64,000 nucleotides of DNA. Source: Mesorhizobium sp. (GTDB lineage: Bacteria > Pseudomonadota > Alphaproteobacteria > Rhizobiales > Rhizobiaceae). The position numbers and the translations under genes were made by a program. The notes beneath the pieces were generated by a model. The model saw only the letters and a list, made by a program, of their open reading frames with translations. It was not told the origin of the DNA and did no database searches. This document shows, piece by piece, positions 40,547 through 63,599 of this stretch. How positions within the stretch are numbered: the first letter of the stretch is position 1; the number at the start of each line of letters is the position of its first letter. The stretch is from the NCBI RefSeq assembly GCF_024710845.1, contig NZ_JANJTZ010000004.1:62001-126000 (forward strand). Reading direction: 5' to 3'.

Positions 40547-40578
40547 TATCAGGTAGCCATATATCCGTCAACCTGACA
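40547..40578 (-). promoter_or_regulatory. Tandem TATCAGG-N3-CCTGATA-type operator of the HCHL operon
   Basis: TATCAGG-TAG-CCATATA (40547-40563) overlaps, by two bases, a second element that on the minus strand reads TGTCAGG-TTG-ACGGATA (40578-40562). A minus-strand TTGACG at 40571-40566 could be a -35, putting both elements over the promoter and 31-62 bases before the HCHL2 start, as expected for a repressor site. One of six such sites in this window. Confidence 0.55.
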
Positions 40579-46711: not shown

Positions 46712-47079
46712 TCCTGGCTCACTCCAAATTGCCTGAAAGCATGAAACGCGGCCATATCGATGTCAATTTCGTTTTGACAGGGTATAATTCCATTTGCTTA
46801 AATCCAACAATCGGATCCGGGCACATGGTCACAGGCGCGGACGCCGGAGACCGAGATGGTCATTGACAATCGATGTATGGTTGCCTGATATAAGGATGCC
46901 ATACGATCTGCCGAATGTGAAGCGTGCAAAGGGCGTGGTTGCCCTTTTTGAAATGATCAAACCGAGTTGGCCCACGGTGAACGACCCCGGGAGGAGGTCT
47001 ACGCCGGTTCGATGTGCCGAGCGGTCGAGACACCGGCGTCCGGGAGCGCTGGAGCGTTGAAGGCCCGGGAGGAGGATTG
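46712..47079. other. Divergent intergenic region between the FAD monooxygenase and tctBAC
   Basis: 368 bases without a supported gene. It holds the tct promoter and its operator (listed separately) around 46863-46905. A minus-strand TTGACA lies at 46766-46761 that could serve the monooxygenase (a poor CATGCT -10 follows). The stretch 46906-47070 shows only the strong GGGAGGAGG ribosome site of tctB at its end. Confidence 0.55.
46863..46891 (+). promoter_or_regulatory. Predicted tctBAC promoter with overlapping operator
   Basis: TTGACA (46863-46868), 17 bases, then TGATAT (46886-46891). The operator half CCTGATA (46884-46890) covers the -10; with TGTATGG (46874-46880) it forms, on the minus strand, TATCAGG-CAA-CCATACA, a weaker copy of the shared palindrome. 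TATAAGG-ATG-CCATACG follows directly. Overlap with the -10 suggests repression. Confidence 0.5.
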
Positions 47080-47529
47080 ATGCTGAAGGTGAAGAGTCCG
47101 CAGGACCTTGGCGCGGGGATAATGTTCCTGCTGATCGGTCTCGCAGGCATCGTTCTCGGCCGCGATCTCGATTTCGGCAGTGCGCGGAACATGGGGCCGG
47201 GATACTTTCCGCTCCTCATCTCCGGTTTCATCGTCCTGATCGGCGCCGTCGTCGCGGGCCGCTCATTTACGCTCGAAGGCCCGGCAATCGAGCGTCTGCA
47301 ACTTCGCCCGATCCTGATGCTGCTCGTCGCGCTCGCCGTGTTCAGCTTTCTCATCAAGGAGATCGGCGTCGTTCTCACCTCAATCCTGATGATGGTCGTC
47401 GCCGCTTATGCGCGGCCGAACGTGAACATCGTCGAAACGGTCATCTTCGCCATCTGCGTTGCGACGTTCGTTGCTGTCGTCTTCGTCTTCGGCCTCAATC
47501 AGCCGATGCCGCTGTGGTGGAACGGCTAG
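47080..47529 (+). CDS. tctB: Tripartite tricarboxylate transporter small membrane subunit (TctB)
   Basis: 149 aa from the ATG at 47080 behind GGGAGGAGGATTG. Four hydrophobic segments with the TctB-typical RNMGPGYFPLLISGF after the first. It ends LNQPMPLWWNG, and the tctA ATG follows immediately after its TAG. It forms the membrane part with TctA and is cation-gradient driven. Substrate not determined; it could be citrate-like or an aromatic acid. Confidence 0.88.
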   Translation: MLKVKSPQDLGAGIMFLLIGLAGIVLGRDLDFGSARNMGPGYFPLLISGFIVLIGAVVAGRSFTLEGPAIERLQLRPILMLLVALAVFSFLIKEIGVVLTSILMMVVAAYARPNVNIVETVIFAICVATFVAVVFVFGLNQPMPLWWNG

Positions 47530-49035
47530 ATGGAGATGTTCGAGCATCTGGCGACGGGCTTCGTCGCCGCCGCCTCCGTGCAGAACCTGGTGTTCTGTCT
47601 GATCGGCGTGCTGCTCGGCACGCTCATCGGCGTGCTGCCGGGCATCGGCCCCATTCCGACGCTGGCGATCCTGTTGCCGATCACGTTCGGGCTCGACCCT
47701 CTTTCGGCGCTGATCATGATGGCCGGCATCTACTACGGCGCGCAGTACGGCGGCTCGACCACCTCCATCCTGGTCAATATGCCCGGCGAGGCGTCCTCGG
47801 TCGTGACCTGTATCGAAGGCCACCAGATGGCCAAGCGCGGCCGCGCCGGTTCGGCGCTCGCCACCGCCGCGCTCGCCTCCTTCTTCGCCGGCTGCGTCGG
47901 CACCGTCTTTCTCGCGGCCTTCGGGCCGATTCTGTCGAAAGTCGCGCAGCAATTCACCTCGCCGGACTACTTCTCCCTCATGGTGCTCGGCCTTGTGATG
48001 GCGGTGGTGCTGGCGCACGGCTCGCTCCTCAAGGCGGTGGCGATGGTGCTGATCGGCCTGCTGCTCGGCCTCGTCGGCACCGACGTCAACAGCGGCCTGA
48101 CCCGCTACACTTTCGGCATCGACGGCCTGTGGGAAGGCATCGACTTCCTGCCCCTCGTCCTCGGCCTGTTCGGCATCGTCGAGATCATCCGCAATCTCGA
48201 GAACCCGCCCGCTCATCGAACGCCGATCTCGACGCGCCTGCGCGACCTGTGGCCGACCCGCGACGAATTCCGTCTAGCCTGGCCCGCGGCGGTTCGCGGC
48301 ACCGGCCTGGGCTCGATCCTCGGCATCCTGCCGGGCGGCGGCGCGGTACTGGCCTCGTTCGCCAGCTACACCGTCGAAAAGAAGATCACGCGCCAGCCCG
48401 AGCGGTTCGGCAACGGTGCGATCGAAGGCGTGGCGGGTCCTGAAGCAGCCAACAACGCCGCCGCGCAGACCTCGTTCATCCCCCTGCTCACGCTCGGCAT
48501 TCCGTCCAACCCGGTCATGGCGATCATGATGGGCGCGATGATCATCCAGGGTATCCAGCCGGGCGCCGCAGTCATGACCGCCCGCCCGGAACTGTTCTGG
48601 GGCATGGTCGCATCGATGTGGATCGGCAATCTGATGCTCGTGGTCATCAACCTGCCGATGCTCGGCATCTGGGTGAAGCTGCTCTCGGTCCCCTACCGGT
48701 TCCTCTATCCGGCGATCCTTCTGTTCTGCGCCGTCGGCGTCTACTCGACCAGCACCGAACCGTTCATGATGGTCCTGATGATCGTCTTCTCGATCTTCGG
48801 CTACGTGTTGATGAAGTTCGGCTGCGAGCCCGCGCCGCTGGTCCTCGGCTTCATCCTCGGCCCGCTGATGGAGACCAATCTGCGGCGTTCGCTGACGCTC
48901 TCGCGCGGCGATCCGATGATCTTTCTCGACCGCCCGATCTCAGCGGGCTTGCTGATCGCCACGTTGCTGGTGATCGCGCTGATCGTCTTTCCGCAGTTCC
49001 GCAAGACCAGGGAGGTGGCTTTCCAGGAGGACTAG
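47530..49035 (+). CDS. tctA: Tripartite tricarboxylate transporter large membrane subunit (TctA)
   Basis: 501 aa with about 11-12 membrane segments. Conserved TctA motifs: LPGIGPIPTLAILLPITFGL, GIYYGAQYGGSTTSILVN and GPEAANNAAAQTSFIPLLTLGIP; the C-terminal ends with FPQFRKTREVAFQED. The start is directly adjacent to the tctB stop. It forms the translocation channel. Confidence 0.92.
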   Translation: MEMFEHLATGFVAAASVQNLVFCLIGVLLGTLIGVLPGIGPIPTLAILLPITFGLDPLSALIMMAGIYYGAQYGGSTTSILVNMPGEASSVVTCIEGHQMAKRGRAGSALATAALASFFAGCVGTVFLAAFGPILSKVAQQFTSPDYFSLMVLGLVMAVVLAHGSLLKAVAMVLIGLLLGLVGTDVNSGLTRYTFGIDGLWEGIDFLPLVLGLFGIVEIIRNLENPPAHRTPISTRLRDLWPTRDEFRLAWPAAVRGTGLGSILGILPGGGAVLASFASYTVEKKITRQPERFGNGAIEGVAGPEAANNAAAQTSFIPLLTLGIPSNPVMAIMMGAMIIQGIQPGAAVMTARPELFWGMVASMWIGNLMLVVINLPMLGIWVKLLSVPYRFLYPAILLFCAVGVYSTSTEPFMMVLMIVFSIFGYVLMKFGCEPAPLVLGFILGPLMETNLRRSLTLSRGDPMIFLDRPISAGLLIATLLVIALIVFPQFRKTREVAFQED

Positions 49036-49089
49036 CCTTCTTTCGGACCAACGAAACGAAATACCGATCTCACTCAGGAGGAGAAGAGA

Positions 49090-50079
49090 ATGTCCAAAGA
49101 CAAGATCATGATCACGCGCCGCGGGGCACTCGCACTCGCAGGCGGCGCCGCCGCACTGCTCGCGCCGAGAGTCGCCTTTGCGCAGACAGCCTATCCCAGC
49201 AAGAACATCAGCTTCATCTGCGCGTTCCCGGCAGGCAGCGGCGCCGACGTCCTAGTCCGCTTCTTCGCCGAGAAGGTCGCGGCTGTTGCCGGCCACACTG
49301 TCATCGTCGAGAACAAGCCGGGCGCCGCGGGCAGCATCGCCACCGAATTCACTGCCCGCGCACCGGCCGACGGCCACACGATCTTCGTACATTCGGGCAA
49401 CTCGATCGCCGGCAACATGTGGCTGATGAAGAAGCCGCCGGTCGATGCCGCCAAGGACCTGCAGACCATCGCCACGGTCAACAAGCAGGCCTTCATGATC
49501 ACCGTTCGTGCCGACAGTCCCTACAAGACGCTGGCCGATCTGGTTGCCGACCAGAAGGCCAAGGGCGACAAGGGCTCCTATGCGGTCAACGCGACCTCGG
49601 GTCGGGTTCTCGCCGAGGAGTTCAAGCAGCTCGCTGGTCTCCAGACGCTGCCCGTCTCCTACGGAACGGCTTCGGATTCCGTCAACGACATGCTGAGCGG
49701 CCAGGTCGATTTCGGTTGCCACGATCCGGTCTTCTCGCTAGCGCAGGTGCGTGGCGGCCGCTTCCGGGTCCTGGCGCTGGGCGCGGCGGAACGCCTGCAG
49801 GGCATTCCCGACATCCCGACTTTCAAGGAACAGGGCTACGACATCGACCAGCTCGGCTGGTGGGGCGCCATGGTTCCGGCGGGTGTTCCTGCCGACATCG
49901 TCACCACGATCAACGGCTGGTTCAACAAGGTCCTCGCCGAGGATGCGACGAAGGAATTCCTGATGAAGCAGGGCGGCGACCCTTACATCTCCACGCCTGA
50001 AGAATCGCAGAAGCTGATGGAAGAAACGATCACCGAATGGAAGCGCCTCGTCGAGGTCGCCAAGATCCCGGCGCAGTAA
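49090..50079 (+). CDS. tctC: Tripartite tricarboxylate transporter substrate-binding protein (TctC/Bug family), Tat leader
   Basis: 329 aa after AGGAGGAGAAGAG. The leader ITRRGALALAGGAAALLAP with RVAFAQTAYPSK looks like a Tat signal. The mature protein has the Bug motifs YPSKNISFICAFPAGSGADV, IVENKPGAAGSIATEFTARA, and PDIPTFKEQGYDIDQLGWWG. It binds a small carboxylate in the periplasm and hands it to TctAB. Bug proteins are ligand-diverse and include aromatic-acid binders, which fits this locus. Confidence 0.9.
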   Translation: MSKDKIMITRRGALALAGGAAALLAPRVAFAQTAYPSKNISFICAFPAGSGADVLVRFFAEKVAAVAGHTVIVENKPGAAGSIATEFTARAPADGHTIFVHSGNSIAGNMWLMKKPPVDAAKDLQTIATVNKQAFMITVRADSPYKTLADLVADQKAKGDKGSYAVNATSGRVLAEEFKQLAGLQTLPVSYGTASDSVNDMLSGQVDFGCHDPVFSLAQVRGGRFRVLALGAAERLQGIPDIPTFKEQGYDIDQLGWWGAMVPAGVPADIVTTINGWFNKVLAEDATKEFLMKQGGDPYISTPEESQKLMEETITEWKRLVEVAKIPAQ

Positions 50080-50212: not shown

Positions 50213-50689
50213 GTGTCCAGGAGCAAGACCTCAACCGGCGCCGACCGCGAGATCCTGCGGCCGCGCGCCATGTTCTTCCTCAACCAGGCGAACCATGCGG
50301 TGCGCAGCCGGCTGGACGCGGCGCTGGGCGTCATCGAGATGACGGCGATCCAGTATACGGTGCTGAGCGTCATCGGCGCCCGGGCGGGAATGTCATCGGC
50401 CGAGCTGTCGCGGCGCTTCTTCGTCACGCCGCAGACGATGAACGAGCTGATCGCCGCCCTTGAGCGCCGCGGCTTCATCGTCCGCCAGGCCGATCCGGCA
50501 AACCGCCGGATCCTGCGCATGGACGTCACCGTCGCCGGGCGCGAGATGCTGGCGAAATGCGACGCGCTCGCCGACGCGGTCGAGCGGGACGTCTTCGGCG
50601 CTATGCCGGACGAGGACTATCGCAGGCTGGCCGAACTGACGCGCGATCTCGCGCACCATCTGCGCACGCGCGACGAGACCGCCGGCTGA
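50213..50689 (+). CDS. MarR-family transcriptional regulator
   Basis: 158 aa from a GTG at 50213. Winged HTH: VIEMTAIQYTVLSVIGA, MSSAELSRRFFVTPQTMNELIAALERRGFI, with the wing VRQADPANRRILRMDVTVAG. Dimerisation helices at both ends. It is downstream of tctC in the same direction, and its stop is 3 bases from the stop of the convergent amidohydrolase gene. MarR proteins of aromatic catabolism often repress through 16-20 bp palindromes and are released by aromatic acids or their CoA esters, making this the best local candidate for the TATCAGG-N3-CCTGATA sites. Confidence 0.87.
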   Translation: MSRSKTSTGADREILRPRAMFFLNQANHAVRSRLDAALGVIEMTAIQYTVLSVIGARAGMSSAELSRRFFVTPQTMNELIAALERRGFIVRQADPANRRILRMDVTVAGREMLAKCDALADAVERDVFGAMPDEDYRRLAELTRDLAHHLRTRDETAG

Positions 50690-50692
50690 ACC

Positions 50693-51709
50693 CTATCCGG
50701 TCAGCCCGAGCAGTTTCTCGGCATTGCCGTGATAGATCTTGTGGCGCACCTCTTCGGTGACGTCGAGCGTGTCGAGGATCCGCAGCGTCTCGCGGATATA
50801 CATCGGCCCTCCCTCCGGATCGAACGGCGCATCCGAGGCGAATACGACGCGATCCTCGCCGAAAAACTCGATCGCATGCTCGATTGCCTTGCGTGACCCG
50901 AACGAGGCGGTATCGGCGTAGAACTCCTTGAAATACTCCAGATGCGGCCGCTTCAGCGCTTTGAGCACGGGCTTCAGGTCGCGGTCGCTGGTGCGCTTGC
51001 CCATCTGGTCCCAGCCGGGTCCGACACGGCCTTCGAAATAGGGGATCATGCCGCCGGCGTGGTGGGTGATGACCTTGAGGCCGGGAAACTTGTCGAACAT
51101 GCGCGAGAACACCATCCGCGCCATCGTGGCCGACGTCTCGTAAGGCCAGCCAAGCGTCCAGAAGATCTCGTATTCGGAGCGGGTTTCGGTCTCGTAGTCA
51201 GCGAACTCCTGCGTTCTCGCGGGATGAAGGAAGATCGGCTTGCCGGACTTCGCCATATAGTCGAAGAACGGCTCGAACTCCGGCAGATCGACCGGCTTGC
51301 CATTGATGTTGGTGAAGATCTGCACGCCGCCGGCGCCGAGATCCTCGATCGCGCGACGGCTTTCCTCGACGACGGCGTCCGGGTTGTTCATCGGTGCCGT
51401 CGCAATGAAGGTGGGGAAACGATCCGGATACTTCTGCACCAGCTCGGCCATGGCGTCCGAGCCGATCTGCGACAGTTCGAGCGCCACCTCCGGCCCGGCG
51501 AACTTCTCGAGCGGCGGCGAGGCCAGCGACAGGACCTGCTGGTAGTCCGGTCCGAACATGTCCATGACCTCGAAGCGACGGTCGAGATCGGTCATCATCG
51601 GCACGTCGCCCGACCGCTTGGTCATCTGGGTCATGGTGCCGAGCTCCTTGACCAGGCGGTCGAAGAACGGCTTCGGCCAGATGTGGTTGAAGATGTCGAT
51701 CTTCCGCAT
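50693..51709 (-). CDS. Amidohydrolase-2 family protein (ACMSD / resorcylate decarboxylase-like)
   Basis: 338 aa from the ATG at 51709 (MRKIDIFNHIWP), with GGAGGATCGC before it. TIM-barrel metal sites: IFLHPART, VITHHAGGMIPYFEGR and VVFASDAPFDPEGGP. The usual N-terminal HxH is IFNH here, so the first His is replaced by Phe, which may reduce or alter metal binding. Family members decarboxylate hydroxy-aromatic acids (gamma-resorcylate, 5-carboxyvanillate) or hydrolyse lactones. Preceded by a near-perfect copy of the shared palindrome. Reaction inferred only. Confidence 0.82.
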   Translation of the reverse strand: MRKIDIFNHIWPKPFFDRLVKELGTMTQMTKRSGDVPMMTDLDRRFEVMDMFGPDYQQVLSLASPPLEKFAGPEVALELSQIGSDAMAELVQKYPDRFPTFIATAPMNNPDAVVEESRRAIEDLGAGGVQIFTNINGKPVDLPEFEPFFDYMAKSGKPIFLHPARTQEFADYETETRSEYEIFWTLGWPYETSATMARMVFSRMFDKFPGLKVITHHAGGMIPYFEGRVGPGWDQMGKRTSDRDLKPVLKALKRPHLEYFKEFYADTASFGSRKAIEHAIEFFGEDRVVFASDAPFDPEGGPMYIRETLRILDTLDVTEEVRHKIYHGNAEKLLGLTG

Positions 51710-51723
51710 GCGATCCTCCAATA

Positions 51724-51740
51724 TGTCAGGTTACCTGATA
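51724..51740 (-). promoter_or_regulatory. TATCAGG-N3-CCTGATA-type operator before the amidohydrolase gene
   Basis: TGTCAGG-TTA-CCTGATA, one mismatch from a perfect 7-3-7 palindrome. It lies 15 bases before the start codon and next to a possible minus-strand promoter (TTGACC at 51767-51762, 18 bases, CAGTAT). Confidence 0.6.
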
Positions 51741-51783
51741 CTGCATCGGCTGGTGGGGGCGGGTCAACTGGTGGCGAGGCGAT

Positions 51784-53163
51784 TCAGTCGGCCTGGCCCA
51801 GCTTGCCGGGGTTCATGATGCCGGCCGGGTCGAGCGCCGCCTTGATGGCATTCATCACGTCCACCGCCTCGCCGTGCTCGCGACGCAGGTAGGGCAGCTT
51901 CGAGATGCCGATGCCGTGCTCGCCGCTGAACGTACCGCCGATCTCCAGCGCCCGGGCGTAGAGCCGGCCGGCGAGGCGCTCGGCCTCCGCGAGTTCCTCC
52001 GGAATCTCGGGCTTGATCAGGTAGCCGACATGGAAATTGCCGTCGCCGACATGGCCGATGATCTTGGCGGTCAGGAAGGACCGGTCGATGTCGGCGCGGG
52101 CGGCCAGTACCGCCTCGGCGAGCCGCGAGATCGGCACGCAGACGTCGGTCGTGTAGGTCTTGCAGCCCGGCCGCAGGGACTGGTTGGCGTAGATCGTCTC
52201 GTGCCGCGCCTTCCACAGCCGCTCGCGGTCTTCCGGCAGTGTCGACCAGGCGAAGTTTGAGCCGCCGAACTCGGCGGTGATCGCGGCCACCGTTTGCGAC
52301 TGCTCCTCGACCCAGCGCGGGCTGCCGTGAAACTCGAGGAAAAGCGTCGGTGCCCGCTTCAGCCCCAACTTGGAATGCGCGTTTGCCGCATCCACCGCCA
52401 CCTCGTCGAGAAACTCGATCCGCGCGACGGGAATGCCGCTTTGCATCGTGGCGACCACCGCCTCGACCGCGCCGCGCATCGTCTGGAAGGTGCAGATCGC
52501 CGACGCAATCGTCTCGGGGATCGGCTGCAGCCGCACCGTGACCTCGGTGATGACGCCGAGCGTTCCCTCCGCACCGACGAAGAGCTTGGTCAGGTCGTAG
52601 CCGGTGGACGATTTCTTCACCCGCCGCCCGGTGGTGATGATCTTGCCTGTGGGCGTGACCACGCGCAGCGCCAGCACGTTCTCGCGCATCGTGCCGTAGC
52701 GCACCGCCGTCGTGCCGCTCGCCCGGGTCGACGCCATGCCGCCGAGCGTCGCGTCGGCGCCCGGATCGATGGGAAAGAACAGGCCCATGTCGCGCAAGTA
52801 GGAATTGAGCTGCTTGCGCGTCACGCCGGCCTCGACCACCGCGTCGAAATCCTCGCCGTTGACGGCGACGATCCGCGTCATGCGGCTGACGTCGAGCGAG
52901 ATGCCGCCCTTCAGCGGGATCGTATGGCCTTCCATCGACGAGCCCGCGGCAAACGGCGTCACCGCAATGCCGTGCTCGAAACACGCCGCCACCACGCGCT
53001 GCACGTCGTCCTCGCTCTCGGCGAACACCACCGCATCGGGCAGCCGCGTCGGCTGGCGCGACATGTCGTGGCCATGATGCTCGCGCACCGCGTCCGACAC
53101 CGACAGCCGCTCGCCGAAATGCGGCTTGAGATGGTCGATCACCGGTTGCAGCGGACTGGTCAT
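51784..53163 (-). CDS. FAD-linked 2-hydroxyacid dehydrogenase (D-lactate dehydrogenase / GlcD type)
   Basis: 459 aa. The PCMH-type FAD-binding domain has VVFAESEDDVQRVVAACFEHG, FAAGSSMEGHTIPL, FPIDPGADATLGGMASTRASG and SSTGYDLTKLFVGAEGTLGV. The C-terminal FAD-oxidase domain has HVGDGNFHVGYL, GGTFSGEHGIGISK and ALDPAGIMNPGKLG. It oxidises a D-2-hydroxy acid to the 2-keto acid and passes electrons to the respiratory chain. One base after the second ThDP enzyme, so it probably feeds it a 2-keto acid, as a D-mandelate-type dehydrogenase would. Confidence 0.88.
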   Translation of the reverse strand: MTSPLQPVIDHLKPHFGERLSVSDAVREHHGHDMSRQPTRLPDAVVFAESEDDVQRVVAACFEHGIAVTPFAAGSSMEGHTIPLKGGISLDVSRMTRIVAVNGEDFDAVVEAGVTRKQLNSYLRDMGLFFPIDPGADATLGGMASTRASGTTAVRYGTMRENVLALRVVTPTGKIITTGRRVKKSSTGYDLTKLFVGAEGTLGVITEVTVRLQPIPETIASAICTFQTMRGAVEAVVATMQSGIPVARIEFLDEVAVDAANAHSKLGLKRAPTLFLEFHGSPRWVEEQSQTVAAITAEFGGSNFAWSTLPEDRERLWKARHETIYANQSLRPGCKTYTTDVCVPISRLAEAVLAARADIDRSFLTAKIIGHVGDGNFHVGYLIKPEIPEELAEAERLAGRLYARALEIGGTFSGEHGIGISKLPYLRREHGEAVDVMNAIKAALDPAGIMNPGKLGQAD

Positions 53164-53164
53164 G

Positions 53165-54814
53165 TCACGCGCCTGCCGCCGCGCGGTGATAGCGCGAGCG
53201 CTGGATTTCCTTGGCGGTGATGAACTCCAGCAGCACCGGAATCCCGGCCTTCGTCTTCTCGATCCCGCGCCGGATAGCCGGCACGATCTCCTCCGGCGAC
53301 GTCACCCGCTCGCCATAGGCGCCCATCGCACGCGCGAAGGCGGCATAGTCGCCGGAAATGTCCGTCGAGCGGTACTTTTCCGTCGAGACGGGCATGATCG
53401 GCAATTCCATCGCCATCGCGAAATTGTTGAGCAGGATCGAGAGGATCGGGATGCGCTCCCGCACTGCTGTCTCGAAATCCATGCCGGTGAAGCCGATCGC
53501 GGCGTCGCCCCAGACATTGATGCAGAGCGTGTCGGGATGGGCGAGCTTGGCGCCCATCGCCAGCCCAAGCCCGTAGCCGAGCTGGGTCGACTTGCCCCAG
53601 CCGATATAGGTCAGCGGCTCGATCGTCCTCCAGAAAGGCGAGAGCTGGTCGCGCGGACTGCCGGCATCGTGCGTGATGATCGTGTTGGCAACGTCGACCG
53701 TGTGCTGCAGGTCCCACAACACCCGGTAGGGCGACAGCGGCGCGTCGTTCGAAGTCAGTTTCGGCATCCATTCGGCGAGCCAGGCTGCCTGTACCGACGC
53801 GATTTCCGCTGCCGTCTCCGCCGCATCGCGGGCGGGCGTTCCCCGCATATCGAGCTCGGCCAGCACGGCGTCGAGGGTCAGCCCTGCATCGCCCACCAGA
53901 GCCACCCTGGCCTCGATGTCCTTATTGACATGGTCGGGGTCGAGCGTGGCGTGGATGATCGTCATGCCAAGCGGCATCTGCACGCCGAACGCGGTCTCCG
54001 TGAAGGAACAGCCGATGCCGAAGATGAGGTCGGACGCATCCAGGAAATGGCGCAGCGTTTTCGAGATCGCCGCACCGCCCGCGCCGATCGACAGCTCATG
54101 CGTCTCGGGAAACGCGCTCTTGCCTTCGAGGCTGGTCGAAACGGGAATCGCCAGACGCTCCGCCAGCGCCTTCAGCTGCGGCCAGGCACGGCCGTAGTGG
54201 ACGCCCTGTCCAGCGTAGAGCACCGGGCGCTTGGCCGCCAGCAGCAGATCGACCGCCTCCCGCACCGCCGCCGGGTCGGGACCGTAGCGAGTGGCGAGCA
54301 CCGGCCGGTAGTTGAGAGGCTCCGGCACCTCGTGCTGCCACATGTCGTTCGGGATCTCGATCAGCACCGGCCCGCCGCGCCCGTTGCGCAGCCGGCTGAA
54401 GGCGCGGCGGAACACATTGGTCAGCTCCTCGGCCGACGTGATCGGCTCGGCCGACTTGGTGATGCTGCGCATCGAGATGGTGGCGTTGTAGTTGGGATCG
54501 ACATGGGCGAGCCGGCGCTCGTAGCCCATCGGCAGCACCAGCAGCGGCACCGATTCCGCATAGGCCTGAGCGATGCCGCCGTAGGAATTCTCCGTCCCCG
54601 GCCCGAGCTGCATGGCGAAGACGCCGATCCTGCGCCCCGACGACAGCCGCGAGATCGCGTCGGCCATGTGGATGCCGGTACGCTCCTGCCGCACGATGAT
54701 GGGGCGGATGTCGGCCTCGGCGGCGCGTTCCAGCACGTGGTTGACCGGATAGCCGCAGATGAGCTCGACGCCCTCCCGCTTGAGGATTTCCGCAATCGCT
54801 GCACCGAGCTTCAT
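53165..54814 (-). CDS. Thiamine diphosphate-dependent enzyme (acetolactate synthase / 2-keto acid decarboxylase family), copy 2
   Basis: 549 aa from the ATG at 54814 behind AGGAGACGCACG. The N-terminal PYR domain keeps the catalytic Glu in IIVRQERTGIHMADA. The central domain is TPP_enzyme_M. The C-terminal PP domain has GWGKSTQLGYGLGLAMGAK and the ThDP motif GDAAIGFTG through LLNNFAM (GDG-type with Ala for the second Gly). ATGA overlap with the FMN oxidase gene. Likely decarboxylates or ligates a 2-keto acid made by the neighbouring 2-hydroxyacid dehydrogenases; the exact reaction is unknown. Confidence 0.85.
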   Translation of the reverse strand: MKLGAAIAEILKREGVELICGYPVNHVLERAAEADIRPIIVRQERTGIHMADAISRLSSGRRIGVFAMQLGPGTENSYGGIAQAYAESVPLLVLPMGYERRLAHVDPNYNATISMRSITKSAEPITSAEELTNVFRRAFSRLRNGRGGPVLIEIPNDMWQHEVPEPLNYRPVLATRYGPDPAAVREAVDLLLAAKRPVLYAGQGVHYGRAWPQLKALAERLAIPVSTSLEGKSAFPETHELSIGAGGAAISKTLRHFLDASDLIFGIGCSFTETAFGVQMPLGMTIIHATLDPDHVNKDIEARVALVGDAGLTLDAVLAELDMRGTPARDAAETAAEIASVQAAWLAEWMPKLTSNDAPLSPYRVLWDLQHTVDVANTIITHDAGSPRDQLSPFWRTIEPLTYIGWGKSTQLGYGLGLAMGAKLAHPDTLCINVWGDAAIGFTGMDFETAVRERIPILSILLNNFAMAMELPIMPVSTEKYRSTDISGDYAAFARAMGAYGERVTSPEEIVPAIRRGIEKTKAGIPVLLEFITAKEIQRSRYHRAAAGA

Positions 54815-56046
54815 CGTGCGTCTCCTGTCCGGGCCGGCCACGTCCAGGCCGTCGCATGCCGCACCGGCGCATGGCGCGCCTCCGCGGCGGACCGCAGCCC
54901 GGACTGGCCGAGCGCGAGGGTGAATTCTTCGACGAAGCTAGCCGCCATGTGGCGCGCGCCGTCGTCGCCGATGGCCGCCAGCGCCAGCATGAACGCGCGG
55001 GCCGAAAAGCTCGCGTGGGCGCCACAGGCAAGCGCCCGCAGCATGTCGACCCCGGAGGTGACGCCGCTGTCGAGAATGACCGTCATGTCGCACCCGACAG
55101 CTGCGGCGACGGCCGGCAGCATGTCGATCGAGGCCGGCGCTGCGTCGAACTGACGGCCGCCATGGTTGGAGACGATCACGCCGTCCATGCCGAGCGCGCG
55201 CGCCTTCTCGGCATCGGCCGGGTGCAGCACGCCCTTGACCAGCATAGGCCCGCGCCAGGTCTCGCGCAGCCGCGCCAGCACGTCCCAGGCAAAGCCGCCG
55301 CCGACATGGGCGCCCACGAAGGCGGCCGGGTCGCCTCCCCCCGCATAGGCTTCAATGTTGGCGAAGCGCGGCATGCCCCGCCTGGCCAGGGCCCGCATCC
55401 AGGCGGGCGACGCGGCGATGTCCAGCGCGTTGCGATAGCCCACCCGGAAGGGCATCACGAAGCCGTTGCGCAGGTCGCGCGGACGCTTCGAGCGAACGGG
55501 AACGTCGAGCGTCGCCACCAGCACCCGGGCGCCGGCGGCCTGCGCGCGGGCGGCTAGGTCGAAGCTGACGCGATGGTCATCGGCGGCCAATGGATAGAGC
55601 TGGAACCAGGTCACGTCCGGCGCCCATCTGGCGACATCTTCGATGCGCGCGGTCGCCAGCGTGCCGACGAGATAGGGTATGTTCATCCGCTGCGCCGCGC
55701 GCGCGAACAGCTCGGTCGCCCCGGGCCACATCAGCCCGTCCATGCCGATCGGCGCGATGCCGATCGGAGCGGCGTAGCGGTGGCCGAACAGCTCGACCGT
55801 CGGATCGATGCCCTGCGTCTCGATCCCGTAGCGCGGCACGATCTCGATGCCCCGGAGCGCTGACCGGTTGCGGGACAGGCCGCTCTCGTCTCCGGCACCG
55901 CCTTGCAGGAACTCAAAGGCGAAGCGGGGAATCCGCTTGTCGGCGCGCTTCTCCAGGTCCTCGATGGTCGGGAATTTCCGGCGCAGCAGCGGAAGCCGTT
56001 GCGCCAACCGCGCCTCGTGCGTGGCGTGGGGCGTGGCCGTGTCCAC
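54811..56046 (-). CDS. FMN-dependent alpha-hydroxy acid oxidase/dehydrogenase (L-lactate / L-mandelate dehydrogenase type)
   Basis: 411 aa from a GTG at 56046 overlapping the stop of the preceding gene by one base (TAGTG). FMN-dependent family motifs: ADKRIPRFAFEFLQGGAGDE, PIGIAPIGMDGLMWPG, WFQLYPL, LVKGVLHPADAEKARALG and the active site VSNHGGRQFD (His/Arg), followed by DSGVTSGVDM. It oxidises an L-2-hydroxy acid. Between two ThDP enzymes and with an aldehyde dehydrogenase, the resemblance to mdlB (mandelate dehydrogenase) is strong in context; substrate not proven. Confidence 0.88.
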   Translation of the reverse strand: MDTATPHATHEARLAQRLPLLRRKFPTIEDLEKRADKRIPRFAFEFLQGGAGDESGLSRNRSALRGIEIVPRYGIETQGIDPTVELFGHRYAAPIGIAPIGMDGLMWPGATELFARAAQRMNIPYLVGTLATARIEDVARWAPDVTWFQLYPLAADDHRVSFDLAARAQAAGARVLVATLDVPVRSKRPRDLRNGFVMPFRVGYRNALDIAASPAWMRALARRGMPRFANIEAYAGGGDPAAFVGAHVGGGFAWDVLARLRETWRGPMLVKGVLHPADAEKARALGMDGVIVSNHGGRQFDAAPASIDMLPAVAAAVGCDMTVILDSGVTSGVDMLRALACGAHASFSARAFMLALAAIGDDGARHMAASFVEEFTLALGQSGLRSAAEARHAPVRHATAWTWPARTGDAR

Positions 56047-57743
56047 TAATAGCCCACGATGACTTCCAGCAGCGCCTGGCGGCCCGACCGTGTCGCTTCC
56101 AGCGCGCGCCGGATGGCGGCCGGAAGAGCCGCGCCGTCGTCGACGCGTTCGGCATGCGCGCCGTGCGCCCGCGCGATCGCGGCATAGTCGGGCGACGGGT
56201 CGAGCGCGGTGATCGGCATCACGTTGGCCGCTGCCGCACTGCCGTCCGGATACATGTAGAGCGTCGAACGGCGCACCGCGTTCCAGATGCCGTTGTTGAA
56301 GACGACGGTCAGCAGCGGAAGCTTCAGCGCCGCCGCGGTCTGGTGGCAGGCCACGGGATTGGCGAACATGTAGGAACCGTCGCCGATCGTCGCGATCACC
56401 TGCTTGGACCGGTCCCCCAGCTGCGCGCCGAGCGCAGCCGTCAGGCCCCAGCCGAGACCGCCGGAGAGCGGCGTCGAGAAAAAGCTGCGCGGCGCCTCGA
56501 ACCGCATCGCGCTCGGATCGATCCCCAGCTCGTTGAAGAACACCGTGTTCGCGTCGGCGGCATCGGACAGGCATTTGCTGACATAGGCCGGCGACATTGG
56601 CGAGCCGCTGCCGGCCGAAAGCCTCCTCTGCAGCGCGGCGTCGAGCGCGGCACGCGCCGAAGCGACGCGGGCGCGGCGGTCAGCGAAATCCTCGACCGCG
56701 GGCACGCAGTCGCGCATGGCGGCGTCCAGCGCGGCGATGCCGGCATTCAGCCCGCCCGCCAGCGAGATGTCGATGCGGAAGCTGCGCATCGGCAGGCCGC
56801 GGTAGAGCGGCTCCGGGCCGAGCGCGATGACCGTGCAGGTCTCCGGCGGCTGGACATGGTCGGCGATCCAAGGGACCATGGCCCCGGCGACGACGATCAC
56901 GTCGGCGTTGCGAACCCATTCGGTCGGATCCCGGCCGACATGCATCGGATGGCTGGTGGGCAGCGCCTGTCGCGTCGCCCAGAATTCGACCACCGGCAGG
57001 GCAAAACGCTCGGCAAAGCCCGTCAGCGGCTCGAAGCCGCCGCCGACCTCGCCGCTCTGCGTGATGATGACCGGGTTCTTCGCTTGAGAAAGCACCTCCG
57101 CTGCGCGTGCCACGAGGTCCGCTGCGGGCGGTCCGTAGGTCGTCGGCGCGAGGTTCGGGCGGGACGTCGGCGCGACGGCCGCCTCGGCGAGCGCTTCGCG
57201 TGGCAGGCTGACATAGACCGGGCCGCGCGGCTCGCTCATGGCGATGCTGATGGCGCGGTCGATCGCCGGCCCCGCCTGGTCGGCATAGCGCAGCTCGTAG
57301 TCCCATTTGACGATCTCGCGCACCATTCCGGCCTGGTCGCGCATCTCCTGGCCCCAGTGGATCGGGCTCGACCGGCTGCCGAAGCGGCCGCTCTCGGTCA
57401 GCGGCGTGCGCCCCGAGCACATCAGGATCGGCACGTTCTCCGACGCCGCGTTGATCAGCCCCATGACGGAATTGGCGAGACCGACATTGACATGCACCAT
57501 CACGGCGGCCGGCTTGCCCGTCGCCAGATAGTAGCCATGCGCCATGCCCACCGCGACGCCTTCATGCGGAATGACGAACGGTTCCGGCATGGCGATACCG
57601 CTCTCCGGCGCGCGCGCATAGGCCTCAATGATCGAAGGGAAGTCGGTGCCGCCATTGGCGAACAGCACGTCGATGCCGGCCGCCTTCATCCGGCCGAGCA
57701 CCGACTCCGCGGCGAAGGCGCCTTCCGGACGGGTGTGCTTCAT
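56046..57743 (-). CDS. Thiamine diphosphate-dependent enzyme (benzoylformate decarboxylase / acetolactate synthase family), copy 1
   Basis: 565 aa from the ATG at 57743 behind GGGAGGCCGATGCG. Catalytic Glu61 in VIPHEGVAVGMAHGYY; NVGLANSVMGLINAA and ILMCSGRTPL in the PYR domain; the C-terminal ThDP motif GDGSYMFANP through VVFNNGIWN. It lies between an aldehyde dehydrogenase gene (28 bases upstream) and the FMN hydroxyacid oxidase, the same logic as mdlC (2-keto acid to aldehyde). No sign of the FAD site needed by true acetolactate synthase was looked for beyond these motifs. Confidence 0.86.
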   Translation of the reverse strand: MKHTRPEGAFAAESVLGRMKAAGIDVLFANGGTDFPSIIEAYARAPESGIAMPEPFVIPHEGVAVGMAHGYYLATGKPAAVMVHVNVGLANSVMGLINAASENVPILMCSGRTPLTESGRFGSRSSPIHWGQEMRDQAGMVREIVKWDYELRYADQAGPAIDRAISIAMSEPRGPVYVSLPREALAEAAVAPTSRPNLAPTTYGPPAADLVARAAEVLSQAKNPVIITQSGEVGGGFEPLTGFAERFALPVVEFWATRQALPTSHPMHVGRDPTEWVRNADVIVVAGAMVPWIADHVQPPETCTVIALGPEPLYRGLPMRSFRIDISLAGGLNAGIAALDAAMRDCVPAVEDFADRRARVASARAALDAALQRRLSAGSGSPMSPAYVSKCLSDAADANTVFFNELGIDPSAMRFEAPRSFFSTPLSGGLGWGLTAALGAQLGDRSKQVIATIGDGSYMFANPVACHQTAAALKLPLLTVVFNNGIWNAVRRSTLYMYPDGSAAAANVMPITALDPSPDYAAIARAHGAHAERVDDGAALPAAIRRALEATRSGRQALLEVIVGY

Positions 57744-57771
57744 CGCATCGGCCTCCCTGCCGTGACCGGTT

Positions 57772-59241
57772 TCAGACGGTGACGCTGAGCGTCTTGGTGA
57801 CGAGGAAGGCGTCGATGCCCTCCATGCCGACCTCGGATCCGTGGCCGCTTTCCTTGACGCCGCCGAACGGCGTCTCGGGCATCGAGATATTGAACGAGTT
57901 GATGCCCACCATCCCCGCCTCGATCGCGTCCCCCAGCCGCGCGATGTTGGACGCCGACGAGGTGAAGGCATAGGCCGCGAGCCCGTAGGGCAAGCTGTTA
58001 GCCTTGCGCACGGCATCGTCCAGATCGCTGAACGGGTTGAGCACGGCGACCGGGCCGAACGGCTCCTCGCGCATGATCCGGGCGTCCCCCGGTACATCGG
58101 CGAGCACCGTCGGCTCGAAGAAGCTGCCCTCGTTGCCGACGCGCCGGCCCCCGGTCAGCAGCCTAGCGCCCTTGGCGACCGCGTCCTGCACCAGCGCTTC
58201 CACCGCGTCGCGGCGGCGACCGTGGACCAGCGGCCCCATCTGTGTGCTCGCATCCAGCCCGTCGCCGACCTTTATCCTGGCAGCCCGCTCGGCAAAGCCC
58301 TCGCAGAAACCCTTGTAGGACGCGTCCTGCACGTAGAACCGTGTCGGCGACACGCAGACCTGGCCGGAGTTGCGGTATTTGCGCAGCACGCCCATGTCGA
58401 GCGCGGTCGTCATGTCGGCATCGTCGAAGACCAGCACCGGCGCGTGGCCGCCAAGCTCCATCGTGGTGCGCTTCAGCCCGTCGGCGGCGAGCTTGATCAG
58501 GTGCTTGCCGACCGGGATCGAGCCGGTGAACGAGATCTTGCGGATGACCGGCGAGGCCAGCAGATGACGCGAGATCGTGTCCGGCACGCCGAACACCACC
58601 GCGATCGCACCCGCCGGCACGCCCGCGTCCACCAGGCACCGCGCCACAGCGAGCGCCGAGGCCGGAGCCTCTTCGCCCGGCTTGTAGACCATCGTGCAGC
58701 CAGCAGCGAGGGCCGCCCCCATCTTGCGCGCCGCGTTGCCGATCGGGAAGTTCCAGGCGGAGAATCCGGCGGCGGGGCCGACCGGCTCCCGCACGACGGT
58801 GAAGCGCGTGTCGTGCAGCCGGCCGGGAATGACGCGGCCGTAGCTGCGGCGGCCTTCCTCGGCGAACCACTCCATTTCCTCGGAAGCGAAATGCGTCTCG
58901 AGCCGTGCTTCGGCGAGCGGCTTGCCCATCTCGAGCGTGGCGAGGCGGGCGATGTCCTCTTGGCGCTCGCGCATCAGGTCGGCGGCCTTCTTCAGGATCT
59001 TGCCGCGCTCGCGCGGGTTCACGTGGCGCCACGACGCGAAGGCCCGCTCGGCCGCGGCCAGCGCCCGGTCGAGATCGGCGGCGGTCGCGTGCGGCACGAC
59101 GCCGATGGCGCGTCCGGTGGCAGGATTTACGACCGGCTGCGTCTCGCGCGCCGACGCGTCTATCCATTCGCCATCGATGAGGAGTTCAGGCGACACGTAG
59201 CCGCCCGGAACGACGGCAGGGCCTCTGGACACGGCGTTCAT
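57772..59241 (-). CDS. NAD(P)-dependent aldehyde dehydrogenase (benzaldehyde / semialdehyde dehydrogenase-like)
   Basis: 489 aa from the ATG at 59241 behind GAGGAGGACGACTG. Catalytic Asn164 (SAWNFP), Glu262 (ELGGHA) and Cys296 (GQVCVSP); cofactor loop FTGSIPVG. Clearly a paralogue of the enzyme at 36055, sharing the CVSPTRFYV segment. First gene of the mandelate-like operon, directly downstream of a near-perfect shared palindrome. It would oxidise the aldehyde made by the ThDP enzyme. Confidence 0.9.
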   Translation of the reverse strand: MNAVSRGPAVVPGGYVSPELLIDGEWIDASARETQPVVNPATGRAIGVVPHATAADLDRALAAAERAFASWRHVNPRERGKILKKAADLMRERQEDIARLATLEMGKPLAEARLETHFASEEMEWFAEEGRRSYGRVIPGRLHDTRFTVVREPVGPAAGFSAWNFPIGNAARKMGAALAAGCTMVYKPGEEAPASALAVARCLVDAGVPAGAIAVVFGVPDTISRHLLASPVIRKISFTGSIPVGKHLIKLAADGLKRTTMELGGHAPVLVFDDADMTTALDMGVLRKYRNSGQVCVSPTRFYVQDASYKGFCEGFAERAARIKVGDGLDASTQMGPLVHGRRRDAVEALVQDAVAKGARLLTGGRRVGNEGSFFEPTVLADVPGDARIMREEPFGPVAVLNPFSDLDDAVRKANSLPYGLAAYAFTSSASNIARLGDAIEAGMVGINSFNISMPETPFGGVKESGHGSEVGMEGIDAFLVTKTLSVTV

Positions 59242-59275: not shown

Positions 59276-59304
59276 CTATCATCAGGGTCCCTGATAATTG
59301 TCAA
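59276..59304 (-). promoter_or_regulatory. Promoter with embedded operator for the aldehyde dehydrogenase-ThDP operon
   Basis: On the minus strand TTGACA (59304-59299), 17 bases, TGATAG (59281-59276). The spacer contains CATCAGG-GTC-CCTGATA (59280-59296 on the plus strand), one mismatch from a perfect palindrome. A site between -35 and -10 is the textbook position for a repressor. Confidence 0.6.
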
Positions 59305-59376: not shown

Positions 59377-59393
59377 TATCAGGATGCCTGATA
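59377..59393 (+). promoter_or_regulatory. Perfect TATCAGG-ATG-CCTGATA palindrome before the thioesterase gene
   Basis: The only exact 7-3-7 copy of the shared motif, 24 bases before the thioesterase start. Together with the site at 59280-59296 it brackets the divergent intergenic region, so both operons are probably controlled by the same protein. Confidence 0.65.
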
Positions 59394-59417: not shown

Positions 59418-60350
59418 TTGAGCGAGCGTGAAACTGACATGGGGGGCGGCATGGAAGTCTGGCGCGGCGGCGTCAATGCCTGGGAATGCGACGAGATGGG
59501 CCACATGAACACGCGCTTCTACGTCGCGCGCTGCATGGAGGGCTTGTCCGTGCTCTTCGCGTTCGCCGGACTGCCCGGACTTTTCGCGCCCGGCGCCACC
59601 GCCACGGCACAGGTGGAGGAGATGCATATCCGCTTCCACCGCGAGGCCCAGACGGCGACGCCTCTCTACATGATTGCAGGCTTCTCTAGCGCGGGCGAAA
59701 GCAATGCCGAGGTCGTGGCCTTGCTGCGGCGCGACATCGATGGCGCGCTCGTGGCCACATTCCGCATCGTGCTCAGTGCCTCGACGCCGGCCGGCGAATC
59801 GATTGCCTGGCCGGCGCCGTTCCCCGATCGGGCCGCGGCTCTTGCGATGGAAGTGCCGCCCGAGGCTCGCCCCCGGGGCGTGAAAGCCGGTCCCGTGCCG
59901 TCCCTTGACGCGCCTTCCGCACTCGCCGCCCACAGGCGTATCGCTCTCGGGTCCGTCGCGACGTCCGACTGCGATGCGTTCGGGCGCATGGTCCCCCAGA
60001 AATTCATGGGCGCCGTCGCCGACGGTATCCGCGGCCTGACCGCGCCCCTGCGGGAGATCGTCGCCCGGCACGCCGAAACCGTCCCCGAGCGCTTCGGCGG
60101 CGCGGTGCTTGAATTCCGCATCGTCCATGTCGGCCGGCCCCGCGCCGGCGACGGTTTCGAGGTCCGCTCGGCCTTCACCGGTGCGGACGCAAAGACGCTC
60201 TCGCTCGAACACTGGATGATCGACCCGGTCGGAGGACAGGTCTGGGGCTACATGGAATCGGTGGCGATCGTTTTCGACCTCGACCGCCGCAAGATCGTCG
60301 GCATCACCGAGGCCGCGACCGCCGCCCTGCGGCCCCTGATGCTGGGCTGA
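59418..60350 (+). CDS. Double-hotdog acyl-CoA thioesterase-like protein
   Basis: 310 aa from a TTG at 59418 with GGAAGGG 6 bases upstream. The earlier ATG in frame (59373) is on the operator, and a later ATG (59439) lacks a ribosome site. Two hotdog domains: VNAWECDEMGHMNTRFYVARCMEG (4HBT-type D-E-M-G-H-M-N motif with the catalytic Asp) and GSVATSDCDAFGRMVPQKFMG in the second half. It hydrolyses acyl- or aroyl-CoA. It would release a free aromatic acid or recycle CoA in the neighbouring routes. Confidence 0.82.
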   Translation: MSERETDMGGGMEVWRGGVNAWECDEMGHMNTRFYVARCMEGLSVLFAFAGLPGLFAPGATATAQVEEMHIRFHREAQTATPLYMIAGFSSAGESNAEVVALLRRDIDGALVATFRIVLSASTPAGESIAWPAPFPDRAAALAMEVPPEARPRGVKAGPVPSLDAPSALAAHRRIALGSVATSDCDAFGRMVPQKFMGAVADGIRGLTAPLREIVARHAETVPERFGGAVLEFRIVHVGRPRAGDGFEVRSAFTGADAKTLSLEHWMIDPVGGQVWGYMESVAIVFDLDRRKIVGITEAATAALRPLMLG

Positions 60351-60399: not shown

Positions 60400-61128
60400 T
60401 CAGCGGAAGCGCTCGGCAAACGCGACGCTGTTGATCAGGGCCGCCAGCTCCTTGCGGGCGGCGAAGGACGTCTCCGGCGCGGTCGACAGGAACGCCTTCA
60501 CGGCGCGCACGGTCGCGGCCGAGTTCTTCGTCAGTTGGCCGACGATCCGCTGCGTTTCCGCCTCCAGCGTATCGGCCCCGGTGACGACGCCGATCAGGCC
60601 GAGCGTCTTGGCCTCCGCCGCCTCCACCGCGTCGCGTGTCAGCACGAGCCGCGCCAATGCGGCGCGCGGGATGCGGTCGGCCAGCGCATTCATCACCAGC
60701 GTCGGCGCGATGTCGTGGTTCATCTCCGGCACCTGGAAACGCGCCGTGTCGGCGGCCACCGCGACGTCGGCCAGCGCAGCGATGGCGCAGCCCACCCCAT
60801 TGGCGCGGCCGCGCACCTGCGTCACGAAGGGCACCGGCACCTCGCGCAGGACCTGGTAGAAATCGAGTACCGGATCTGAGATCAGCCGCCGCAGGTCGAG
60901 CGCCGTGACCTTCGTGCCGGCCGCCGGCATCGCCGCGCTGCGCCCGGTGCAGAAGTCCGCGCCTGCGGCCTTGACCAGCACCACGCGCGTTTCGGGGTCG
61001 AGCGTGCGCAACGCGGCGGAGATTGCCTCCGCCATCGCGGGCGTCAGCGCGTTGCCCTGTTCGGGACGGTTCAGCACGATCTCGAGGACGTGATCGTCGC
61101 GCTGGGTGATGATGACTTCGTTGGTCAA
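60400..61128 (-). CDS. Enoyl-CoA hydratase/isomerase family protein
   Basis: 242 aa from a TTG at 61128 overlapping the upstream stop as TTGA, with AAGGAG before it. Crotonase fold: VLNRPEQGNALTPAM, DFCTGRSAAM (oxyanion loop with Arg-Ser rather than Ala-Asp) and RGRANGVGCAIAALADVA. VPEMNHDIAPTLVMNALA occupies the catalytic Glu segment. The altered active-site segments suggest an isomerase, hydrolase or lyase role rather than a plain hydratase. Coupled to the molybdenum hydroxylase subunit. Confidence 0.83.
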   Translation of the reverse strand: MTNEVIITQRDDHVLEIVLNRPEQGNALTPAMAEAISAALRTLDPETRVVLVKAAGADFCTGRSAAMPAAGTKVTALDLRRLISDPVLDFYQVLREVPVPFVTQVRGRANGVGCAIAALADVAVAADTARFQVPEMNHDIAPTLVMNALADRIPRAALARLVLTRDAVEAAEAKTLGLIGVVTGADTLEAETQRIVGQLTKNSAATVRAVKAFLSTAPETSFAARKELAALINSVAFAERFR

Positions 61129-63582: not shown

Positions 63583-63599
63583 TATCAGGGAGGCTTATA
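63583..63599 (-). promoter_or_regulatory. TATCAGG-N3-CCTGATA-type operator before the molybdenum hydroxylase gene
   Basis: TATCAGG-GAG-GCTTATA: left half exact, right half 5 of 7. It lies 83-99 bases before the start at 63500. No convincing -35/-10 pair could be matched to it. Confidence 0.5.

Follow-up and report, generated by a model that had tools for sequence, protein, structure and literature searches.

The mandelate pathway of Pseudomonas putida (mdlABCD) leads from a 2-hydroxy acid through a 2-keto acid and an aldehyde to an acid. Acinetobacter possesses membrane-bound L- and D-mandelate dehydrogenases. The catabolism of p-hydroxycinnamate, in turn, is under the MarR-type control of HcaR. 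Here, we analyzed a 64,000-nucleotide stretch of a Mesorhizobium sp. genome (contig NZ_JANJTZ010000004.1, positions 62,001 to 126,000; hereinafter the window), on whose minus strand (59241-51784) five tightly packed genes code, in order, for an aldehyde dehydrogenase (ALDH), a thiamine diphosphate (ThDP)-dependent enzyme (ThDP1), a flavin mononucleotide (FMN)-dependent hydroxyacid dehydrogenase, a second ThDP-dependent enzyme (ThDP2), and a flavin adenine dinucleotide (FAD)-dependent dehydrogenase of the LDHD/GlcD type (Table 1). An original prediction made from the DNA letters had named this order of enzyme types, all of which are present after small coordinate corrections, and had read it as mandelate-like chemistry, which the present analysis supports. 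With a probability of roughly 0.6, we propose that the five genes form an operon for the breakdown of a ring-substituted aryl 2-hydroxy acid of the mandelate type, that this operon, which has no racemase, belongs to a hydroxycinnamate-linked regulon, and that ThDP2 would serve in it as a separate lyase or carboligase. The mandelate-type logic is already known; what is new is the predicted hydroxycinnamate-linked regulon marked by an inverted repeat, which the original prediction had missed.

Like the Acinetobacter mandelate dehydrogenases, the operon has two flavin dehydrogenases of predicted opposite handedness in place of a racemase, a likeness of logic and not of gene families. The mandelate pathway of P. 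putida, as described in the available part of PMC7760541, shares with it an FMN (S)-dehydrogenase, a ThDP decarboxylase, and an ALDH in the same reaction order. The present operon departs from that pathway in that none of its five proteins is a racemase, an LDHD-type FAD enzyme being found instead; in that its predicted decarboxylase comes from PRK08327 and not from the PRK07092 benzoylformate decarboxylase family; and in its extra ThDP enzyme and hydroxycinnamate-linked regulon. The bzf cluster of Pseudomonas strain LLC-1 resembles it in its arylglyoxylate decarboxylase and ALDH and in the nearest folds to ThDP1, although ThDP1 is only 23% identical; according to the same portion of that source, LLC-1 has no genes for the racemase or the (S)-mandelate dehydrogenase, and mandelate does not support its growth (PMC7760541). 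On the regulatory side, the accessible text of PMC4737184 describes the MarR regulator CouR as controlling several p-hydroxycinnamate operons via inverted repeats at four promoters.

Enzymes of the operon

The gene order, its recurrence, the family memberships, and the repeat with its conservation are read directly from the DNA. ALDH and ThDP1 are separated by a 28-base gap, ThDP1 and the FMN enzyme overlap by 1 base, the FMN enzyme (whose gene has a GTG start) and ThDP2 overlap by 4 bases, and 1 base lies between ThDP2 and the GlcD-type gene. Pfam searches bore out the fold of each of the five proteins and of an amidohydrolase encoded next to them and recovered no MR/MLE domain in any of these six proteins, to which the search for a racemase was confined.

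Table 1. Coordinates of the operon, its neighbors, the operator-like repeats, and related fusion genes (window positions unless a locus is given)
Feature	Coordinates	Strand	Evidence	Predicted role or remark
ALDH	57772..59241	-	Pfam Aldedh 521 bits	predicted aryl-aldehyde to aryl-acid step
ThDP1	56046..57743	-	PRK08327/NF006203	predicted arylglyoxylate (benzoylformate-type) decarboxylase
FMN-dependent (S)-2-hydroxyacid dehydrogenase, (S)-mandelate dehydrogenase type	54811..56046	-	Pfam FMN_dh 366 bits	
ThDP2	53165..54814	-	PRK06154/NF004807, uncharacterized	predicted C-C lyase or carboligase
LDHD/GlcD-type FAD-dependent (R)-2-hydroxyacid dehydrogenase	51784..53163	-	488 bits to LDHD chain 8jdc	
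Amidohydro_2 family protein	50693..51709	-	Pfam Amidohydro_2 143.6 bits	possible decarboxylase, separate unit
MarR-family regulator	50213..50689	+	Pfam MarR	candidate owner of the operator
TctB, TctA, TctC tripartite tricarboxylate transporter genes	47080..50079	+	Pfam 60, 523.7, 165.3 bits, all above cut-off	
FAD aromatic-ring monooxygenase-like protein	45488..46711	-	best NCBIfam 3-hydroxybenzoate 6-monooxygenase 287.6 bits, under cut-off 459	predicted regulon
4HBT_2 thioesterase-like protein	59439..60350	+	Pfam 72.8 bits	divergent from operon; operator-like sites upstream
Enoyl-CoA hydratase-like protein	60400..61128	-	Pfam ECH_1 107 bits	predicted regulon
Molybdenum hydroxylase large-subunit-like protein	61125..63500	-	Pfam MoCoBD_1/2	predicted regulon
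p-Hydroxycinnamoyl-CoA hydratase/lyase 1	39653..40516	-	NF006588 411.7 bits vs cut-off 276	
ADP-forming acyl-CoA ligase-like protein	37531..39666	-	Pfam Succ_CoA_lig, ATP-grasp_5, CoA_binding_2	predicted hydroxycinnamate activation
ALDH of hydroxycinnamate operon	36055..37500	-	Pfam Aldedh 541 bits	
p-Hydroxycinnamoyl-CoA hydratase/lyase 2	35189..36046	-	NF006588 411 bits vs cut-off 276	
Operator-like repeat before ALDH	59280..59296		perfect ATCAGGNNNCCTGAT, one of two in genome	conserved
Operator-like repeat before thioesterase-like gene	59377..59393		only perfect TATCAGGNNNCCTGATA in genome	conserved
Operator-like repeat before amidohydrolase	51724..51740		one mismatch	conserved
Operator-like repeat before Mo-hydroxylase/enoyl-CoA hydratase pair	63583..63599		two mismatches	16/17 columns invariant (four genomes) vs 52/203 elsewhere
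Operator-like repeat before p-hydroxycinnamoyl-CoA hydratase/lyase operon	40547..40563		two mismatches	16/17 columns invariant vs 47/88 elsewhere
Weaker repeat between FAD monooxygenase and Tct transporter genes	46874..46890		three mismatches	14/17 columns invariant vs 216/380
Benzoylformate decarboxylase-ALDH fusion	L005:9356-12436	-		
Benzoylformate decarboxylase-ALDH fusion	L006:2111-5230			
Benzoylformate decarboxylase-ALDH fusion	L008:3004-6132			
Benzoylformate decarboxylase-ALDH fusion	L183:2445-5570			

In the proposed pathway, one arylglyoxylate would arise from both forms of the substrate, from (S) through oxidation by the FMN enzyme and from (R) through oxidation by the LDHD-type FAD enzyme, with both enzymes probably passing their electrons to the respiratory chain; the analysis lends support to this complementary use of enantiomers, which had already been suggested in the original prediction. 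The best one-piece match of the FMN enzyme is the (S)-mandelate dehydrogenase 6bfg (215 bits), followed by 4-hydroxymandelate oxidase; two L-lactate oxidase chains (720-736 residues) outscore 6bfg, but do so in four separate pieces. Of what we take to be the substrate and catalytic residues in MdlB numbering (Tyr26, Tyr131, Arg165, His274, Arg277), the last four correspond to Tyr151, Arg188, His295, and Arg298 and are kept in 10 of 10 aligned proteins; the equivalent of MdlB Gly81 is likewise kept in the FMN enzyme. The FAD enzyme falls under the cut-off of the GlcD glycolate oxidase model TIGR00387 (319.2 vs 567.9 bits) and is nearest to mouse LDHD, presented in the available text of PMC10589216 as a Mn-dependent dehydrogenase of hydrophobic D-2-hydroxy acids. 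All five LDHD metal/substrate residues given there (Arg347, His398, His405, Glu442, His443) are kept (Arg320, His371, His378, Glu415, His416), and all four pocket residues (Val101, Trp351, Ser365, Ile407) are changed (Met77, Ile324, Thr338, Gly380); the replacement of Trp351 by Ile and of Ile407 by Gly is compatible with a bulkier side chain. In the literature, we found nothing joining an FAD D-mandelate dehydrogenase with benzoylformate decarboxylase, nothing joining the latter with vanillylmandelate, and nothing relevant on BbmA among the matches listed.

The resulting arylglyoxylate would be decarboxylated to an aryl aldehyde by ThDP1. This protein scores above the curated cut-off of the PRK08327 model (NF006203; 644.8 vs 456 bits) and far under that of the PRK07092 benzoylformate decarboxylase model (NF005485; 177.2 vs 493 bits), by which we reject it as a plain member of the latter family. 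In a tree of 46 proteins, ThDP1 and PRK08327 nonetheless group with benzoylformate decarboxylases (98/98), though the rows L161-L166 counted as such are themselves under the benzoylformate decarboxylase cut-off. The mdlC-like reading of the original prediction is supported by the grouping and corrected as to the family. The best PDB matches of ThDP1 are benzoylformate decarboxylases, and in Foldseek searches the 4-hydroxybenzoylformate decarboxylases from R. jostii and P. fluorescens (7orx, 6qsi) and the M. smegmatis enzyme 4q9d rank first by fold, matches that carry limited weight given the medium quality of the model (mean pLDDT 70, nine rows). In the catalytic set of benzoylformate decarboxylase, which we take to be Ser26, Glu47, His70, and His281 in P. 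putida numbering, Glu47 and His70 correspond to Glu61 and His84 of ThDP1 and are kept in 12 of 12 ThDP1/PRK08327 rows. Together with the gene replacement described below, this makes ThDP1 very probably the arylglyoxylate decarboxylase of the operon. The genome also codes for a second PRK08327-type protein (G000:C63:109784-111469; L142), 46% identical to ThDP1, with a 32% identical ALDH and branched-chain-type transporter genes nearby.

ThDP2 belongs to PRK06154 (NF004807; 870.9 bits, over the curated cut-off of 607). Neither the PRK08327 nor the PRK06154 model names a function, and our literature searches found no papers on either. According to the original prediction, its reading would fall if both ThDP enzymes clustered with, for example, sulfoacetaldehyde acetyltransferase or oxalyl-CoA decarboxylase; these identities are ruled out by the tree and by the cut-offs of TIGR03457 (676.4 bits; ThDP1 142.3, ThDP2 203.9) and, in a whole-genome search, TIGR03254 (739.4 bits; ThDP1 86.2, ThDP2 113). 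In the tree, ThDP2 forms its own clade (100/100), apart from both of these families and from rows that we labeled acetohydroxyacid synthase (AHAS) by inference (L167-L171, which headed a search for glyoxylate carboligase but all stayed under its cut-off); according to a warning from the tree program, the long branches of ThDP2 and AHAS come together, and the tree kept both. Against the acetolactate synthase model TIGR00118, ThDP2 scores 272.9 bits, under the cut-off of 538.35. The folds nearest to its model (pLDDT 82) are 2-hydroxyacyl-CoA lyases/synthases, nearly tied, in a span of 3 Z units (36-39), with benzaldehyde lyase, glyoxylate carboligase, oxalyl-CoA decarboxylase, AHAS, and HKA synthase; a family missing from the list of fold matches was not counted as evidence against that family. 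At the position of His70 of benzoylformate decarboxylase, ThDP2 carries Gln. Its relatives are 71-92% identical among the at least 80 loci listed. Judged by these profiles and the tree, the two ThDP enzymes, the second of which the original prediction had left unexplained, are of different kinds, and two parallel decarboxylases are unlikely for that reason. ThDP2 probably has a task of its own, as a conserved lyase or carboligase forming or cleaving a C-C bond adjacent to a carbonyl; it might, for example, act on an aryl α-hydroxyketone or diketone, from which an aldehyde or keto acid would enter the pathway. Tentatively, and as something possible rather than probable, we suggest that it is a new thiamine-dependent C-C lyase/carboligase for such ketones derived from lignin, in which case a single regulon would handle aryl-C3 (hydroxycinnamate), aryl-C2 (mandelate/arylglyoxylate), and ketone side chains.

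The last step would be the oxidation of the aryl aldehyde by the ALDH to an aryl acid, which would join the aromatic acids coming from a hydroxycinnamate operon. The closest paralogue of this ALDH in the genome (57% identity) is the ALDH of that operon (36055-37500), whose expected substrate is the hydroxybenzaldehyde made by the hydratase/lyase.

Recurrence of the operon in other genomes

We scanned a one-genome-per-species collection with ThDP2 and considered the best 80 loci listed, for which reason the counts are lower bounds (our handles for loci and genomes begin with L and G; L001 and G418, whose contigs are equally long, are counted as one genome). The order ALDH-ThDP1-FMN-ThDP2-GlcD recurs in seven other genomes (L001/G418, L002, L003, L004, G389, G390, G589) and is, therefore, not due to chance. 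Four of the best 80 ThDP2 loci listed (L001-L004) have the full order, and another four (L005-L008) combine ThDP2 and GlcD with an ALDH and a distantly related ThDP protein. Within the host family, ThDP2 was recovered at E <= 1e-200 in 5 of 199 genomes (own included), every time in such a cluster: full operons in G000, G390, G418, and G589, and a fusion of benzoylformate decarboxylase and ALDH with ThDP2 and GlcD in G556. The gene order is kept from the hydroxycinnamate operon through the Mo-hydroxylase in G389, G390, and G418.

In L005, L006, L007, L008, and L183, ThDP2 and GlcD are kept and a benzoylformate decarboxylase lies nearby instead of ThDP1. All five stand-ins exceed the curated NCBIfam cut-off of 493 bits (718.2, 681.7, 702.3, 668.4, and 672, respectively); four are fused to an ALDH (1026, 1039, 1042, and 1041 residues; Table 1), and that of L007 is unfused with a separate ALDH alongside. 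The FMN enzyme (50-54% identity) was found only in L005 and L007 among these clusters. As none of 96 evenly drawn genomes of the class (own included) has a PRK07092-type benzoylformate decarboxylase over the cut-off, its presence beside ThDP2 and GlcD is unlikely to be chance. That this enzyme can replace ThDP1 while ThDP2 and GlcD stay argues for ThDP1 being the decarboxylase and ThDP2 having a separate task.

ThDP2 was also seen in other settings. Many Bradyrhizobium genomes (L010-L080) have lone ThDP2 genes (71-75% identity) without partners, and their neighborhoods gave no lead on function. In the Acetobacteraceae L009, L067, and L070, it is near an MR/MLE enolase-superfamily protein, an NAD 2-hydroxyacid dehydrogenase, a short-chain dehydrogenase/reductase, and solute-binding transporter genes, and in L067 and L070 also an amidase; the Pfam search covered the L067 dehydrogenase and the MR/MLE proteins of both L009 and L067, the others being assigned by similarity, and we take this neighborhood as suggestive only. 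A Rhodobacteraceae locus (L072:12408-20696) has ThDP2 with thioesterase-like, enoyl-CoA hydratase, and Mo-hydroxylase genes (48-65% identity) and a luciferase-like monooxygenase, the other operon genes being absent; luciferase-like genes similar to its own flank the operon in L002-L004. The clusters with fused decarboxylases also have TRAP-type transporter genes (read by eye), and L061, a contig labeled as a Terriglobia metagenome-assembled genome, has ThDP2 at 74% identity, by transfer or misbinning.

An inverted repeat shared with hydroxycinnamate genes

An inverted repeat, TATCAGG-N3-CCTGATA, was first spotted by eye in upstream regions. The 15-mer ATCAGGNNNCCTGAT has two perfect copies in the 5.36 Mb genome, both between the ALDH and the divergent thioesterase-like gene, and, at up to one mismatch, 12 sites versus 0 for a reversed control. 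With up to two mismatches, the 17-mer TATCAGGNNNCCTGATA has 8 sites in the genome, 5 of them inside 40.5-63.6 kb of the window (23 kb, 0.4% of the genome). Across four genomes, 14-16 of the 17 columns per site are invariant, versus 26-61% in the remainder of those regions. A one-mismatch site lies before the ALDH in L002-L004, as does a two-mismatch site before the thioesterase-like gene in L072, from another lineage.

One of the conserved copies precedes a hydroxycinnamate operon (two lyases, an ADP-forming acyl-CoA ligase, and an ALDH) 11 kb from the mandelate-like operon. The two probably belong to one regulon and are switched together. Since the operon's repeat also marks hydroxycinnamate degradation, a substrate from plant phenolics or lignin is likely, in line with the setting envisaged in the original prediction; we favor a ring-substituted mandelate (an aryl-C2 acid) of such origin, as it would fit best. 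A candidate regulator is the MarR-family protein encoded between the Tct and amidohydrolase genes, whose closest solved structure is HcaR (56 bits) and which would bind the repeat. In having a MarR-type gene of this affinity the locus resembles the CouR and HcaR regulons; it differs from them in a predicted regulon that includes a mandelate-like arm, and the ATCAGG-N3-CCTGAT of its repeat contrasts with the CouR box cATTGA-N5-TCAATg given in the accessible part of PMC4737184.

Of the other genes in the predicted regulon, that for the Mo-hydroxylase-like protein gave 13 NCBIfam matches, all under cut-off, and the monooxygenase gene is followed by DLH and α/β-hydrolase genes. The amidohydrolase gene lies 74 bases past the GlcD-type gene, and because this gap carries an operator-like repeat of its own, we regard it as a neighbor and not a sixth operon gene. 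It adjoins four of the seven other full operons (L001/G418, G389, G390, G589), was not matched in L002-L004, and was rejected as a core gene. The original prediction had it follow the operon as a potential decarboxylase. Besides being a unit apart from the operon, the protein has the uncharacterized 3ij6 as best PDB match, followed by 5-carboxyvanillate decarboxylase and ACMSD, a family resemblance by which decarboxylation is possible.

Alternative substrates and what the locus implies

(R)-3-(3,4-dihydroxyphenyl)lactate is released with caffeate from rosmarinate-like esters. The main rival to a mandelate is an aryl-lactate such as this, from which the dehydrogenases would make an arylpyruvate that ThDP1 would convert into an arylacetaldehyde and the ALDH, in turn, into an arylacetate. 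It would explain why a regulon couples a 2-hydroxy acid with hydroxycinnamate and contains α/β-hydrolases, in keeping with the repeat common to both operons and with the DLH and α/β-hydrolase genes after the monooxygenase gene; moreover, the available text of PMC10589216 has mouse LDHD accepting D-phenyllactate, at an efficiency 4.3-fold below that for D-lactate. We nevertheless consider an aryl-lactate unlikely: ThDP1 clusters with benzoylformate decarboxylases, such a decarboxylase stands in its place in five relatives, and the operon ALDH is closest to the hydroxycinnamate ALDH, which is expected to use benzaldehydes. The odds are long against generic aliphatic 2-hydroxy acids (lactate, 2-hydroxyisovalerate), from which LldD-like and LDHD-like enzymes would make 2-keto acids for a decarboxylase and for a ThDP2 resembling acetolactate synthase. 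The best NCBIfam matches, albeit all below cut-off, are indeed L-lactate dehydrogenase, GlcD, and, once the model of ThDP2 itself is set aside, acetolactate synthase for ThDP2, and LDHD accepts hydrophobic aliphatic acids according to the same portion of PMC10589216; but the FMN enzyme is nearest to mandelate dehydrogenase, the second type of cluster holds a benzoylformate decarboxylase, and the operon shares its repeat with the hydroxycinnamate genes. That ThDP2 is kept in both types of cluster and adjoins GlcD could also mean that it is the physiological keto acid decarboxylase, with ThDP1 as an accessory enzyme (e.g., a carboligase, or a decarboxylase acting on a ring with other substituents). 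Its Gln at the His70 position, nearest folds that are mainly lyases and synthases, and the benzoylformate decarboxylase in all five clusters without ThDP1 make this very unlikely.

The proposed mandelate-type operon under hydroxycinnamate-linked control has its own difficulties. Catalysis is predicted throughout, and we infer every reaction, the substrate, the electron acceptors, and the regulon. MdlB Tyr26 is replaced by Phe46 in the FMN enzyme (Phe in 8 of 10 aligned proteins, Tyr in 2), as it is by Phe in the aligned 4-hydroxymandelate oxidase. In ThDP1, the Ser26 position of benzoylformate decarboxylase is Thr33 or Gly32, depending on the alignment, and the His281 segment is deleted; a matching His in one alignment was discarded, as it lies outside that segment and was not recovered in a broader alignment. 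ThDP1 homologues of about 50% identity elsewhere in the class have no link to this pathway: in 13 of 13 loci where gene calling recovered one, there was no match to another operon protein beside it, except for the 32% identical ALDH in L142. GlcD was not found in the fetched flanks of 72 of the best 80 ThDP2 loci listed, mainly Bradyrhizobium with a lone ThDP2; ThDP2, therefore, also has a role outside the proposed pathway. In G589, the 5 kb retrieved past the ALDH contain neither the thioesterase-like nor the Mo-hydroxylase gene. As for the repeat, it was not seen in L005 and L008, and L006 and L007 have only two-mismatch copies; the motif matrix was trained partly on window sites, 3 of the 6 being outside the training set; and once three mismatches are allowed, 56 sites in the genome match the 17-mer versus 38 for the reversed control, so that weak sites mean little alone and the one at 46874..46890 leans on its conservation. 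Relatives of the MarR protein were not found by tblastn near the clusters of L002-L004 or six others (L005-L008, L072, L183), and the regulator assignment consequently rests on near relatives.

With a mandelate-type operon as the preferred reading, the shared operator suggests joint switching of mandelate-like and hydroxycinnamate degradation in this organism. The named genes make aryl-C2 catabolism testable in the host family, and PRK08327 and PRK06154, two families without a named function, gain a concrete pathway setting. As ThDP2 is widespread, knowing its reaction would annotate a large group of proteins.

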